Below, piece by piece: positions 52,803 to 58,769 of a DNA stretch of 64,000 bases. The position numbers were made by a program, and so were the translations under genes. Where the stretch lies: contig NZ_CP150637.1 of assembly GCF_038500265.1 (NCBI RefSeq), forward strand, positions 1,079,501 through 1,143,500, given 5' to 3'. Within the stretch, counting starts at the first letter, position 1. Each line of letters starts with the position of its first letter. The notes below the pieces were generated by a model. The model made no database searches and was not told where the DNA came from. It saw only the letters and a list, made by a program, of their open reading frames with translations. The DNA is from Ignatzschineria larvae DSM 13226 (GTDB lineage: Bacteria > Pseudomonadota > Gammaproteobacteria > Cardiobacteriales > Wohlfahrtiimonadaceae).

Positions 52803-52832
52803 TTGACTTCTAAAATCCTTTAGGTGTATTAT
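52803..52832 (+). promoter_or_regulatory. promoter of the M-box/corA transcript
   Basis: TTGACT (52803-52808), 18 bases, TATTAT (52827-52832). Transcription would start near 52839, just before the 5' edge of the riboswitch. Confidence 0.6.
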
Positions 52833-52849
52833 CCATGCACAAATTGCAG

Positions 52850-53055
52850 GTACCTCGTTAGGTGAGGCTCCTGTACGGAGATAGGCTACTGCCCAGAAAC
52901 GTCCAAAGACGCCAACGGGTTTAACAGAGATCATCGAATTAAGGTGATCTATAACGTAGCTAGCGACTAGAGAAATCATTGAATATATTATCCATAATGG
53001 AATATTCATGTAACTATTTCCTTATGCCGTACAGTGCTAAAGCTCAATGAAAGAG
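52850..53055 (+). ncRNA. M-box (ykoK leader) magnesium riboswitch
   Basis: The sequence carries the conserved M-box blocks in order: TCGTTAGGTGAGGCTCCTGT, then GGAGATA, TGCCCAGAAACGTCCAAAGA, CGCCAACGGGT, AACAGAGATCATC with GGTGATC, and finally TATGCCGTACAGTGCTAAAG followed by CTC. The stems pair. P1 is TCGTT (52855-52859) with AATGA (53046-53050). An inner stem is GCTAC (52885-52889) with GTAGC (52956-52960), and another hairpin is GATCATC with GGTGATC. Compared with the Bacillus mgtE M-box as I remember it, GCTGC/GCAGC has become GCTAC/GTAGC, a compensating change. A segment of about 50 bases with its own hairpin is inserted near 52965-53020. It senses Mg2+ and should switch off the corA genes when Mg2+ is high. 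Confidence 0.93.
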
Positions 53056-53336
53056 GAAATCAGTAATTTCACTGATAATCATCGATATTTTGGCAAATAG
53101 CCAAGATGTTCTTGTGGTAGTTTCAAAATGATTATCCATTCAAATGGTATTAATAGAAACTGTAAAAGCAGATTTTGAGCGTAATAGATTAGAATGGGGA
53201 ATGATTTTAAGAAGCGAGCAGGGCACATAGTCATTAATCTATGAGCCTACTTCTGGCGTATAGTCTATACGCTACCACAGGATTATTAAGTGTGATATTG
53301 ATTTGTTATGCACTCTAGTGAATTGATTGGATTTCA
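53056..53336 (+). other. long linker between riboswitch and terminator
   Basis: 281 bases of leader without a gene. It contains a near-continuous palindrome GCGTATAG-T-CTATACGC (53256-53272) and a small stem CATAG/CTATG (53226-53242). It may form part of the expression platform; no antiterminator partner for the terminator stem was found by eye. Confidence 0.4.
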
Positions 53337-53372
53337 AGAGCGCACCTTTTTCATAAGAAGGGTGCGCTTTTT
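53337..53372 (+). terminator. terminator of the M-box expression platform
   Basis: AGCGCACC (53339-53346) pairs perfectly with GGTGCGCT (53361-53368), followed by T5, and lies 42 bases before the first corA start. Its position between the aptamer and the genes fits control by transcription attenuation. Confidence 0.85.
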
Positions 53373-53414
53373 GTTTGTTTCAATTTTTCAATTCACTTTG
53401 CCAAGGAGAGCAAT

Positions 53415-54347
53415 ATGAGCATCGTACAAGATAAAATCATTCTCTCAAAAGAATCTGCCATAAAAGCGGGCCCCCAAACATCGGCTACAGAATGGATTAA
53501 TCTTATTTCTCCCTCTGTGGCTGAATTGAGTCGTGTTCTTAAAAAATACCATTTGCCGGAAGATACACTGCAGCGGGCTCGAGGTCATTTGAATCAATTA
53601 GAAGATGATACTATTTTATTAAAAATTGATATTCCTCGGAAAAATTTACCTCGCTCTAAAGTGCCATATCAAATATCACATCTAACGCTTTTAGTGAAAG
53701 AGGATACGGTTATTACGATCGCAGACCAAGACTCATTTCTCTTTACCTACTTAGAACACGAGCATTTAGTGACTTGGGCAGAGAAAGATCCGACTGATTT
53801 TGTCTATCGAATCTTAGATATGACAACAACAATGTTTATCAATTTAACTGAAAATTTAATTCAGGAAATTAACGTATTAGAGACTAATCTCAAACGGGAA
53901 TTTAATAATAAATCGGTCTATAAACTAATTGATAACAATAAAAGTCTACTCTACTTTGCAAAAGCACTGAATAGAAACATTAAGCTTCTCAAATCTCTAG
54001 CTCAGAAGAGTATATTAAAAGCGGACTATGAACAGGATTTAGCGCTTCAAGATTTGATCACTAAAACAGAACAAGCTGAGAGTGTTGCAACGATTCATCA
54101 AGCAAACTTACGGAACTTAATGGATGCTTATTCTGCATTGATCGAGAATAATCTCAGTCTCTCAGTGCAATATTTAACAATCTTGGTAACGGTTGCAACG
54201 GTACCGATGGCTATTGGTGGCATTTATGGAATGAATATTCCATTGCCTTGGCAAGAATCACCGTATGCGTTAACAGGATTAGCGGTGATTGCCGGCATTA
54301 TTATCGTGGGGGCTTTAGCATTCTTCAGATCGAAGAAGATGATTTAA
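53415..54347 (+). CDS. CorA-family divalent cation transporter, first of three
   Basis: The 310-residue CorA-type channel has a soluble N-terminal funnel domain, a long stalk helix and two C-terminal membrane helices. The selectivity motif is intact: YGMNIPLPWQ with GMN at 272-274. The C-terminus is basic (RSKKMI). CorA proteins form pentamers that import Mg2+ (also Co2+ and Ni2+) and close when cytoplasmic Mg2+ is high. A strong AAGGAG ribosome binding site precedes the ATG. It is the first gene after the M-box riboswitch and its terminator, so it should be expressed when Mg2+ is scarce. Confidence 0.93.
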   Translation: MSIVQDKIILSKESAIKAGPQTSATEWINLISPSVAELSRVLKKYHLPEDTLQRARGHLNQLEDDTILLKIDIPRKNLPRSKVPYQISHLTLLVKEDTVITIADQDSFLFTYLEHEHLVTWAEKDPTDFVYRILDMTTTMFINLTENLIQEINVLETNLKREFNNKSVYKLIDNNKSLLYFAKALNRNIKLLKSLAQKSILKADYEQDLALQDLITKTEQAESVATIHQANLRNLMDAYSALIENNLSLSVQYLTILVTVATVPMAIGGIYGMNIPLPWQESPYALTGLAVIAGIIIVGALAFFRSKKMI

Positions 54348-54524: not shown

Positions 54525-55481
54525 ATGTTAAAAGTATATAAAAGCCTCGCATTAGGGGAACTTCAAGAAGAAGCACGTTTTAAAAGCAATACATTAATTG
54601 TCTTAACTGACCCAGATTCAGAGAAAATCAAGCAAGTTGCCTCGCAATTCAAGTTGCCAGAGAAATTCTTTACTGATTCCCTCGATCCCCAGGAGCATCC
54701 TCGTTTAGAGCGGGATAGTAATGGTTTATTGATTGTTCTCAATATTCCCGTTACCAATCCTAATGCAGGTAAAGAGAATGAGGCACCTTATATTACGCTT
54801 CCATTTGGCATTATTCATGCGGAAAATAACCTCTTTTTAGTCACTAAAAAGGCACATCAACCACTTATTGATCAATTTTTAAATGGCCAATTCGGGCTCT
54901 TTGAAACCCATATGAAAACCCGAATGACAATTTTGCTCTTTAAAGCAGTGGCTAAATCTTACGATGATCATTTAGGTTTTGTGAAAGATGAGACGCGAGT
55001 ATTACAACAGAAACTACGCCAATCTTACCAAAATCGCGAGCTCTTTAGCTTAATCAATCAGAATAAAAGTTTACTACAATTTTCTGTTGCACTATCAGCT
55101 CTCACGATCTTATATCGGCAAGTGATTAATGGTTATGCCGTTAAAATTTATCCTGAAGAGAAGGGCTTGCTATCAGATATTTTAGTCGATATCGAACAAT
55201 CTGCAGAAGTCGCAGAGATGAGCCGTGAAAGCTTGAGTAACTTGATGGATGCTTATGCGGCGATTGTTCATAATAATCTTAATACGGTTCTCAAAACATT
55301 AACAGCCTTAGCGATCATTCTGATTATTCCCTCGATGATTGGTTCTATTTTCTCCATGAATGTGGCACTGCCAAGCGAAGAAGATCCAATATCTACCGTC
55401 GTTGTCGCCAGTATTATGGTGTTAGTGAGCGTTATTTTACTCTTTTTCTTCTACTGCAAAAAATATATTCGTTTTGATTAA
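54525..55481 (+). CDS. CorA-family paralog with SMN in place of GMN, second of three
   Basis: The 318-residue protein has the CorA layout: funnel domain, stalk helix with NKSLLQFSVALS, the ESLSNLMDAYAAIVHNNLN segment and two membrane helices. At the pore entrance the motif is IFSMNVALPSEED, so the Gly of GMN is Ser (codon TCC at 55353-55355). Gly-Met-Asn is nearly invariant in CorA and needed for Mg2+ transport. This copy could therefore be a different-ion carrier, a regulatory subunit of a mixed pentamer, or inactive. It starts 177 bases after the first corA; the third follows 12 bases later. Confidence 0.9.
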   Translation: MLKVYKSLALGELQEEARFKSNTLIVLTDPDSEKIKQVASQFKLPEKFFTDSLDPQEHPRLERDSNGLLIVLNIPVTNPNAGKENEAPYITLPFGIIHAENNLFLVTKKAHQPLIDQFLNGQFGLFETHMKTRMTILLFKAVAKSYDDHLGFVKDETRVLQQKLRQSYQNRELFSLINQNKSLLQFSVALSALTILYRQVINGYAVKIYPEEKGLLSDILVDIEQSAEVAEMSRESLSNLMDAYAAIVHNNLNTVLKTLTALAIILIIPSMIGSIFSMNVALPSEEDPISTVVVASIMVLVSVILLFFFYCKKYIRFD

Positions 55482-55493
55482 TGGGAGCTTATC

Positions 55494-56441
55494 ATGATCA
55501 CAATCTACAAAAACTTAGTTAAAAACACCTATGAGCATGAAACGCAAATCACCGATAACAACTGGATTCGTGTGATAAACCCCGATCAGATGGATCTCAA
55601 TACGTTGCATCGCACGCTCAATATCCCCATGGATTTCATGAAAGAGGCCATTGATATCAATACTCGCCCAACGATTATGAGCGAAGGTGATATGATGCTT
55701 TTTATCATTCATCTACCTTATGTAAACCCTGAATTTAAGGCTAATTCTGAGGGGATTCGTTATCAAACAATTCCCTTAGGGATTGCACTAGTCGGAACGC
55801 ATATTGTGACGATCTGCAATGTTGATATGACGAGCTTTTTCGAAGCATTTATGAAATGCTGCAATGGCTTAGGTCGAGAAAAACAGATACAAAATCTTTT
55901 GGATCTGTTCCATATCACTTCAGAGCGTTATCTTAAATTAATGCATACCATTGAATATGAGATTGCCGAAGCAGAAGATGAATTATCCCGCTCTTATCGG
56001 AACTCTGAGCTTTATACATTACTTTATATCAATGATGGTTTGCTAGATATGACAATCTCTTTGAAACAGATGTTACATCTTATGCGTAAAATCAATAAAG
56101 AGCGCCTTTTAGATCTCTTTCCAAATGCAGAAGAGCGCTTTGAAGACACCATTATTGAATTAGAACAAGCCTATTCTGTTGCTGAAATCAACCAATTAAA
56201 TGCCAATAACGTCATGGATGCTTACGGTAATATTATTCAAAATAATGTGAGCCATGTCGTTAAGCTATTAACAGCGCTCACCATTGTATTGTCAATTCCA
56301 ACAGTGATCGCCACAATCTACGGTATGAATGTACCATTACCATTTCAGGAGAGCGAACACGCATTTGCGATTCTAATCGTTATCATGGTTATTCTTACAG
56401 GTGTCGTTGCAGGAATCTTCTATAAGAAGAAGTATTTCTAA
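55494..56441 (+). CDS. CorA-family divalent cation transporter, third of three
   Basis: The 315-residue CorA protein has the intact motif YGMNVPLPFQ (GMN at 277-279) and the last-helix ending YKKKYF. The stalk contains LTALTIVLSIPTVIATIYGMN. It is separated from the second copy by 12 bases with GGGAG before the ATG, so the two are co-translated. The three proteins are clearly paralogous but diverged (different N-terminal domains), so the array is old rather than a recent duplication. Confidence 0.92.
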   Translation: MITIYKNLVKNTYEHETQITDNNWIRVINPDQMDLNTLHRTLNIPMDFMKEAIDINTRPTIMSEGDMMLFIIHLPYVNPEFKANSEGIRYQTIPLGIALVGTHIVTICNVDMTSFFEAFMKCCNGLGREKQIQNLLDLFHITSERYLKLMHTIEYEIAEAEDELSRSYRNSELYTLLYINDGLLDMTISLKQMLHLMRKINKERLLDLFPNAEERFEDTIIELEQAYSVAEINQLNANNVMDAYGNIIQNNVSHVVKLLTALTIVLSIPTVIATIYGMNVPLPFQESEHAFAILIVIMVILTGVVAGIFYKKKYF

Positions 56442-56617: not shown

Positions 56618-56621
56618 TGTT

Positions 56622-56660
56622 AAAACTCTTGATCCAAAAAGGATCAAGAGTTTTATTTTT
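56622..56660. terminator. terminator of the corA operon
   Basis: AAAACTCTTGATCC (56622-56635) pairs perfectly with GGATCAAGAGTTTT (56641-56654), followed by more T (56655-56660 region). Confidence 0.9.
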
Positions 56661-56951: not shown

Positions 56952-58769
56952 ATGGCTGCGGTAAAAGAAATAGATGAAAGAATCCCTTTAGTAAAGGAAC
57001 AGTATAAGGTAGACCACAATTATAAAAATTATAAGGTGATTCCTGCACGTTATCCTATGAGAAATGTAGGAAGTATTATTGCCGCATTTATCATTACCCT
57101 AGTGCTGTATTCGATATTGACTAATCCACGTTGGGGATGGGATATATTTGGAGAATGGCTTTTTTCTGAACCTGTAATGGTAGGTTTAAGTCGTACTATT
57201 TTGTTAACAATAATTGGAACAATACTAGGCTCTTTGCTCGGAATGTTATTAGCACTGGCGCGAGTTTCTAAATCGCCATTATTATCGGGTGCTTCATGGA
57301 CCTATATTTGGTTTTTAAGATCTATTCCTTTAATTGTTATTTTGCTGTTATTAAATAATATTGGATATTTATATGAGAGTATCAAGGTTTCTAATCCATT
57401 CACAGGAGAGGCCTTGCTTGAATATCCTATTGTTACACTTATTACTCCCTTTACTGCTGCTGTTATTGGCTTGACATTAAACCAATCGGCTTTCTTTGCT
57501 GAAATCATTCGAGGAGGGATTTTATCAGTTGATAATGGTCAGCATGAAGCAGCCTCGGCATTAGGTATTTCCAAAAAAAGACAATCTTTACGTATAGTTT
57601 TGCCTCAAGCGATGAGAACAATTTTACCGACAGGATTCAACGAAATTATCGGGCTTGCTAAAGGCACTTCAATGCTTTACGTTTTAGCATTACCGGAACT
57701 TTTTTATACTGTACAGGTCATCTATCGCCGAAATCTTGAAGTAATTCCATTGCTGATGGTTGCAACAATGTGGTATCTAGTCATTATGACGGTCTTATCT
57801 ATTATTCAACATTATGTAGAACGATATTATGCACGAGGAGCCGTTCGGAATCCCGTTATGATCCCTTTTCAAAAACAGATCGGTAATATTAAATCTTTCT
57901 TATTAGGCCAGCCCTCTAGAGTTTCATTAGATTTAAAGTTCAGTCGTAAAATAGCAATACAGACTTCCACTTCTGTCGATCCTATTATATTAGAGTCTAA
58001 ACAAACTGAAGGTGCAGCGATACAAATTGATAATGTTTCTAAAAGCTTTGGTAAAAATAGAGTGCTAAACGATATCAGTCTATTTTTTCCAGCGGGTAGT
58101 GTAACGGCAATTTTAGGTCCATCAGGCTCTGGCAAATCCACGCTTCTTCGAACAATTAATCACCTGGAAAGCGTAGATGAAGGATTTATCACCGTCGACG
58201 GTGAATTAATAGGATATTTACAGAAAGATAATAAGCTCTACGAATTAAAAGAGAAAGATATATTAAAACAACGTGCAGATATTGCAATGGTTTTTCAAAA
58301 CTTCAATCTTTTTCCCCACATGACAGTACTAGAAAATATTATTGAGGCACCTATTCAGGTTAAAGATATGAAATATGAAGAAGCTGTGGATATTGCTTTT
58401 GATCTACTTTTACGAGTAGGCTTGTTAGATAAAGCTGACAGTTACCCTCGACAATTATCAGGGGGACAACAACAAAGAATTGCAATTGCAAGAGCGCTCG
58501 CTCTCAACCCTAAAGTGATCTTATTTGATGAGCCCACATCCGCTCTTGATCCTGAGCTCGTAGGTGAAGTGCTTGATATTATTAAAAATCTTGCTCATTC
58601 AGGTACAACATTAGTGGTTGTGACCCATGAAATGAATTTTGCTTATGAGGTTGCCGATACAATCATCTTTATGGAAGAGGGTAATGTTATCGAACAAGGT
58701 AGTGTTGATAACGTATTCAATCATACCCAACACCCAAGGACTAAAGCATTTCTCAATAAAATCATTTAA
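56952..58769 (+). CDS. amino-acid-type ABC transporter, permease fused to ATPase
   Basis: The 605-residue fusion starts with a HisM/GlnP-type permease (about 40-290). Five or so helices are present, with the EAA-like loop EAASALGISKKRQSLRIVLP. A linker of about 60 residues leads to a GlnQ-type ATPase (about 360-605). This has Walker [15 protein letters not shown], signature [16 protein letters not shown], Walker B VILFDEPTSALDPE and the His switch VVVTHEM. The permease and ATPase are normally separate genes. The family imports polar amino acids, including cystine and S-substituted cysteines. Two binding-protein genes follow directly. A weak GGGAG precedes the ATG. Confidence 0.92.
   Translation: MAAVKEIDERIPLVKEQYKVDHNYKNYKVIPARYPMRNVGSIIAAFIITLVLYSILTNPRWGWDIFGEWLFSEPVMVGLSRTILLTIIGTILGSLLGMLLALARVSKSPLLSGASWTYIWFLRSIPLIVILLLLNNIGYLYESIKVSNPFTGEALLEYPIVTLITPFTAAVIGLTLNQSAFFAEIIRGGILSVDNGQHEAASALGISKKRQSLRIVLPQAMRTILPTGFNEIIGLAKGTSMLYVLALPELFYTVQVIYRRNLEVIPLLMVATMWYLVIMTVLSIIQHYVERYYARGAVRNPVMIPFQKQIGNIKSFLLGQPSRVSLDLKFSRKIAIQTSTSVDPIILESKQTEGAAIQIDNVSKSFGKNRVLNDISLFFPAGSVTAILGPSGSGKSTLLRTINHLESVDEGFITVDGELIGYLQKDNKLYELKEKDILKQRADIAMVFQNFNLFPHMTVLENIIEAPIQVKDMKYEEAVDIAFDLLLRVGLLDKADSYPRQLSGGQQQRIAIARALALNPKVILFDEPTSALDPELVGEVLDIIKNLAHSGTTLVVVTHEMNFAYEVADTIIFMEEGNVIEQGSVDNVFNHTQHPRTKAFLNKII

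Follow-up and report, generated by a model that had tools for sequence, protein, structure and literature searches.

Upstream of three genes for CorA-family proteins in Ignatzschineria larvae DSM 13226, an earlier sequence-only reading of the 64-kb stretch of DNA analysed here (the window) placed a complete Mg2+-sensing attenuator, i.e. an M-box riboswitch with its own intrinsic terminator, and considered such an arrangement unusual for a gammaproteobacterium. The locus raises the question whether the leader is indeed such a switch, how it would act on the genes behind it, and what in it is out of the ordinary. As argued below, it very probably represents a known type of OFF switch, a transcription-attenuating M-box riboswitch that controls one operon of three corA genes.

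The aptamer can be identified without difficulty. A covariance-model search with RF00380 had been named as the way to check the proposed M-box ahead of the corA genes, and this search found the aptamer (M-box, Mg2+-I, ykoK leader) at 52847-53062 of the + strand over the full length of the model (1-169 of 169) with 136.7 bits and an E-value of 4.6e-32, far over the gathering score of 44 bits. When the whole window was compared with the Rfam cut-offs, only this element and one tRNA passed, thus the M-box is the sole riboswitch match; the mgtA Mg2+ sensor leader (RF01056) had no match in the window at gathering score. The presence of three corA genes downstream was borne out as well: corA1 (53415-54347), corA2 (54525-55481) and corA3 (55494-56441), all on the + strand, match Pfam CorA (PF01544, cut-off 27 bits) with 136.3, 143.5 and 146 bits, so that Mg2+ transporter genes follow the aptamer as expected of RF00380 members. 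The accessible part of PMC4072509 describes corA, mgtA or mgtE as being almost always downstream of M-boxes, the parts of PMC3766115 and PMC9495176 at hand are in line with the general picture and contain no case like the present one, and PMC9111926, as far as accessible, names Gram-positives as the bacteria where M-boxes are commoner. The ligand of the M-box before the corA trio would be Mg2+.

The stretch marked out by the sequence-only reading has meaningful borders: its start, 52803, coincides with the first T of a sigma70-like promoter pattern (TTGACT-18-TATTAT, 52803-52832, + strand), and its end, 53415, with the A of the corA1 ATG. Promoter-like sites are no commoner than chance between 52600 and 57000 (18 vs. 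18.3 expected from shuffles), thus the support for this one comes from its conserved position: in 13 aligned corA leaders a -35-like box stands at the same place, as TTGAC in the nine leaders of the window's genus and as TTGC in the four of a second genus (g2), and the -10-like box, too, keeps its place before the aptamer. The intrinsic terminator claimed just before the first corA gene was located at 53336-53371 (+ strand, 16 pairs, -21.3 kcal/mol, T-rich tail). Its end is 43 nt from the corA1 ATG, and direct reading of the sequence gives a Shine-Dalgarno-like AAGGAG for corA1 at 53403-53408 (+ strand). Terminator-like sites as a class are not above chance in this region (4 vs. 2.7 expected). 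The exact arm pattern of the site at 53336-53371 occurs once in the 2.56-Mb genome, which rules out that this pattern is a general genomic repeat. When ten bases were searched in the window with one mismatch allowed, five matches came up (2.75 expected), two of them being the arms of this terminator. On the minus strand RefA9 matched over the terminator with 24.8 bits, short of its cut-off of 49, and this was taken as chance. Past the trio a further intrinsic terminator-like sequence pattern (56621-56655, + strand) probably marks the end of the operon. Farther downstream, at 56952-58769, the window encodes an ABC transporter protein that combines a permease domain (BPD_transp_1) and an ATPase domain (ABC_tran) in a single chain of 605 aa; behind it come a family-3 solute-binding protein and a second ORF that is similar.

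The link between aptamer and terminator is a strand that can belong to either of two helices. According to the Rfam structure line, the 3' side of P1 consists of 53047-53048 and 53053-53058. The strand 53047-53056 (+ strand) overlaps it and is complementary to 53345-53354 (+ strand), the 5' arm and loop strand of the terminator (10 bp, one of them G-U), thus it can alternatively serve as antiterminator. Being shared by P1 and antiterminator, this strand makes the expression platform mutually exclusive, by sequence, with a closed P1. 

The complementarity was evaluated in 13 corA and 10 mgtE leaders, the 23 in which a usable terminator was present. In a first look, in which the terminator arm was paired with four stretches of each leader, the best partner was the aptamer 3' region in 9 of the 13 corA leaders, and another stretch paired more strongly in L011, L012, L013 and L019. 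Pairing with the 3' region was then compared with pairing to 1000 dinucleotide shuffles of the terminator arm. It must be noted that this region was picked after the first look and that the leaders are related, hence the p values are not independent tests: for duplex energy they were at most 0.046 in 12 of the 13 corA leaders (0.031 in the window's) and 0.093 in the 13th, for the mgtE leaders below 0.05 in 6 of 10 and 0.06-0.134 in the other four, and for the longest uninterrupted helix below 0.05 in three of the 13 corA leaders (0.003 in the window, 0.004 in L012, 0.006 in L015) and 0.06-0.99 in the other ten. The complementarity is found in two genera, and one antiterminator position is U-A throughout the window's genus (nine of nine leaders) and C-G throughout g2 (four of four), a compensatory change that is probably one event.

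Folding of truncated RNAs is informative about the time course. In an RNA that ends at 53356, in the terminator loop, the mean probability of the ten antiterminator pairs was 0.98, most of these pairs were still at 0.86-0.88 when the RNA ended at 53364, and in RNAs reaching 53368 or beyond the terminator took their place. For the full-length leader the equilibrium fold shows no switch, there the terminator is preferred. Since the terminator wins at full length, the switch would have to be kinetic, and in our model the choice would be set by whether P1 holds the strand while the terminator arm emerges. At high cytoplasmic Mg2+ the aptamer would become compact and P1 would close, hiding 53047-53056; with this strand hidden the terminator at 53336-53371 would form and transcription would stop before corA1. 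At low Mg2+ the strand would be free to pair with 53345-53354, the terminator could not form in time, and corA1-corA2-corA3 would be transcribed together, resulting in more Mg2+ uptake by their products. In the accessible part of PMC4072509 most M-boxes are said to use intrinsic terminators by way of an exposed strand, which is the same logic. Of the complete Mg2+-sensing attenuator that had been claimed, the attenuator is thus supported by the covariance-model score, the position of the promoter, the genome-unique terminator and the complementarity recurring in 13 genomes, and the control by Mg2+ itself is what we infer.

A feature absent from the sequence-only reading is the insert of 273 nt (53063-53335, + strand) that separates aptamer and terminator. 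In the 11 corA leaders without insert about 54-104 nt separate the aptamer from the start of the terminator hairpin, thus the gap in the window is longer, and the antiterminator strands are approximately 290 nt apart in the window's species and in G006, a close relative. The insert is predicted to be structured (fold z -4.7 against 200 shuffles), and among the 18 genomes searched (G012-G017 lying outside the search) only the window's genome and G006 have it, with 88% identity. When the truncated RNA was folded, the antiterminator helix extended into the insert, 53057-53075 pairing with 53286-53304. This picture is tempered by two controls. A shuffled insert still allowed an antiterminator probability of at least 0.5 in 24 of 60 trials (mean 0.37). 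Folded alone, the insert does not bring its ends closer than shuffled inserts do (19 exterior-loop elements vs. a shuffled mean of 13.2; 162 of 200 shuffles as low).

These properties of the insert raise the possibility that the aptamer acts through Rho-dependent termination, or through another element within the 273 nt, and not through the distant intrinsic terminator. The length, the structure and the restricted occurrence of the insert would fit this explanation, and a translational M-box with Rho-dependent termination is described for Mycobacterium tuberculosis in the accessible part of PMC12810186. We consider it unlikely, however, because the terminator and its complementarity to the aptamer 3' strand are present in both species that carry the insert and, with the reservations about competing pairings mentioned above, also in the 11 leaders that lack it. 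It is very improbable that the terminator is constitutive, as part of the upstream unit or as a general repeat, and stands outside the control of the aptamer. The preference of the full-length equilibrium fold would be compatible with a constitutive terminator, but the site follows the aptamer's own promoter-like site and stands immediately ahead of corA1. No second copy of its exact arm pattern occurs in the genome, and between the genera a position in its 5' arm changes together with the P1-side strand of the aptamer. Attenuation by the intrinsic terminator under the control of the aptamer thus remains the reading that we prefer.

It is interesting to ask how widespread this arrangement is. 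In the window's family RF00380 was above cut-off in 15 of 18 genomes (G000-G017); it was not found above cut-off in G010, G016 and G017, whose assemblies are 80, 94 and 81% complete. The corA trio occurs in 13 of the 18 genomes, each time with an M-box directly before it, namely in all nine genomes of the window's genus and in four of six of g2 (one of these, G015, was counted with two trio genes, the third would fall past the end of the contig). This unit of aptamer and trio is thus conserved across two genera. G016 and G017 show neither M-box nor trio, and in G011 and G013 M-boxes were found only before mgtE-like genes (Pfam MgtE confirmed for L017). Fourteen other genomes sampled from the order gave no RF00380 match. 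The larger draws used stricter filters, by which some weak matches were lost: among 369 genomes of the class the own genome alone was over the cut-off, and among 398 of the phylum there were six, the own genome included. In the class draw G104 had a weak, 26-bit match below the cut-off. The five other phylum matches belong to one family (f185), in which RF00380 was detected in 21 of 119 genomes with 97-152 bits. One of these elements is 75% identical to an element of Klebsiella pneumoniae, and on this basis we read f185 as Enterobacteriaceae; the Klebsiella element (108-109 bits) precedes an annotated magnesium transporter with Pfam MgtE. A search of the E. coli collection yielded no similar DNA.

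The view that a gammaproteobacterial M-box would be unusual does not hold, given 15 of 18 genomes of the own family and 21 of 119 in f185, and given an mgtE-linked copy in the same genome (see below). What stands is that the trio behind an M-box is confined to the window's family within the genomes searched. As M-boxes recur in Gammaproteobacteria before mgtE-like genes at the loci that we read, the surprise belongs to the corA trio and not to the M-box. We found no paper on an M-box of Gammaproteobacteria or of Ignatzschineria, in a literature coverage that was partial and thus no proof of absence. Gammaproteobacterial M-boxes may already be contained in the data of PMC3766115, which according to its accessible part included 12 Enterobacteriales among the 255 genomes scanned with Rfam models.

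The second M-box of the genome (one contig, 2.56 Mb searched) is L002 (G000:C1:2190478-2190679), with 125.3 bits. It lies 188 nt before a gene (L002 1891-2892) with Pfam MgtE and CBS domains, and its leader has a terminator-like hairpin of its own, whose arm is complementary to the aptamer 3' strand (duplex energy p 0.036). Relatives have a further M-box before another mgtE gene (L026-L030, L017 and L018; Pfam MgtE for L017, L027 and L030). No strong terminator was found in these leaders, and the gene beside mgtE at these loci resembles trkA by eye. In two genomes this M-box copy reaches just 29 bits, below the cut-off. The f185 loci L032-L036 and L092-L094 have the M-box 45-75 nt before an mgtE-like gene. 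Pfam confirmed the MgtE domain in all three downstream proteins that were scanned, those of L032, L034 and the Klebsiella locus L052; the proteins at L033, L035, L036, L092, L093 and L094 resemble MgtE by eye only. In L032-L036 the start codon is 56-73 nt past the aptamer, and the hairpins followed by a T-rich tail are weak, the best of them reaching -11.8 kcal/mol at most (L032 has no such hairpin). At L035 a hairpin could mask the Shine-Dalgarno sequence, which suggests translational control.

The three proteins encoded behind the M-box have pairwise identities of 27-32% (85/299, 95/299 and 84/314 aligned residues); CorA1 is 96% identical to a protein of Ignatzschineria ureiclastica, by which the organism stands near that species. 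With 86.7, 88.7 and 79.1 bits they do not reach the cut-off of the NCBIfam corA equivalog TIGR00383 (200.75 bits), thus by profile scores they would be classified as members of the CorA family outside this equivalog. In a tree of 55 CorA rows, from which the long-branch row L091 was left out, CorA1, CorA2 and CorA3 each formed one group across both genera with full or near-full support, hence the three copies appear to be older than the separation of the two genera. In this tree, which has a midpoint root and long branches, the trio grouped with six CorA-family proteins from Bacillota and Bacteroidota and not with the other sampled proteobacterial CorAs. The best outside tblastn matches of CorA2 in the plasmid collection were in Listeria and Clostridia (30-33% identity), and at E 1e-15 its sole match in 274 sampled gammaproteobacterial genomes was the own genome. 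The grouping in the tree and the CorA2 matches make an origin of the trio by transfer from Bacillota plausible. A sign of joint transfer of M-box and corA was looked for in eight Bacillota and Bacteroidota CorA loci, where no M-box was found at gathering score within 2.5 kb on either side.

The GMN signature sits at the pore mouth of CorA. CorA1 and CorA3 have kept it; CorA2 differs by having SMN, and this is so in all 13 CorA2 orthologues, GMN being present in the other 43 of the 56 rows counted. A homologue from Subdoligranulum (L087, Bacillota), outside both the tree and this count, reads GSN at the signature, so that signatures other than GMN may be commoner in this branch of CorA. The altered pore signature of CorA2, as well as a group of mycobacterial M-boxes adjoining manganese-type transporters in the accessible part of PMC12810186, would fit an aptamer that is a relic or that senses another divalent ion imported by the trio (Mn2+, Co2+, Ni2+), but we regard this as scarcely credible, because the aptamer core is nearly invariant across the 13 corA leaders with scores as high as those of mgtE-linked aptamers, corA1 and corA3 have GMN, and of two tested M-boxes before Nramp-like genes one gave Mg2+-specific control in the accessible part of PMC4072509.

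Going further, it is possible, if rather doubtful, that the M-box serves a CorA set of its own. The three paralogues, ancient and regulated together, would then form a mixed channel or channels of differing properties, CorA2 with its SMN would be a regulatory or differently selective subunit, and in those Ignatzschineria that are near I. ureiclastica a long-range antiterminator would operate across the folded insert. An SMN paralogue within a conserved trio under one Mg2+ switch would offer a natural test of specialisation or mixing of CorA subunits in bacteria. The locus would also extend the hosts of M-boxes that use an intrinsic-terminator platform by one gammaproteobacterial family, it would place two classes of Mg2+ transporters (the corA trio and mgtE) under M-boxes in one genome, and the insert would provide an example of a riboswitch in which about 290 nt separate the switching strands.

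How does the locus compare with known systems? The enteric mgtA leader (RF01056) responds to cytoplasmic Mg2+. The leader described here is like it in being a leader RNA of the type that serves a Mg2+ response, and unlike it in that the window has no RF01056 match. The mgtE leaders of Klebsiella pneumoniae (L052, L053; 108-109 bits) and of f185 (97-152 bits) share the RF00380 M-box with the window, whereas the f185 leaders L032-L036 have a short gap between aptamer and start codon and weak hairpins, thus their output may be different, perhaps translational. With CorA proteins of the Bacillota type (Listeria, Peptoclostridium) CorA2 has 33% identity over 91% of its length; unlike CorA2, those placed in the tree have GMN. 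A close parallel in design is the ykoK (mgtE) leader of Bacillus subtilis (RF00380), which has an aptamer, a P1-side strand able to antiterminate, an intrinsic terminator and downstream Mg2+ transporter genes. The differences are the gammaproteobacterial host, three corA genes in the place of mgtE and the 273-nt structured insert in the window's species. Judged by its sequence, the locus is a real M-box attenuator, new as an instance and ordinary in mechanism; its unusual features are the corA trio, one of whose products has SMN, and the long folded stretch between aptamer and terminator.
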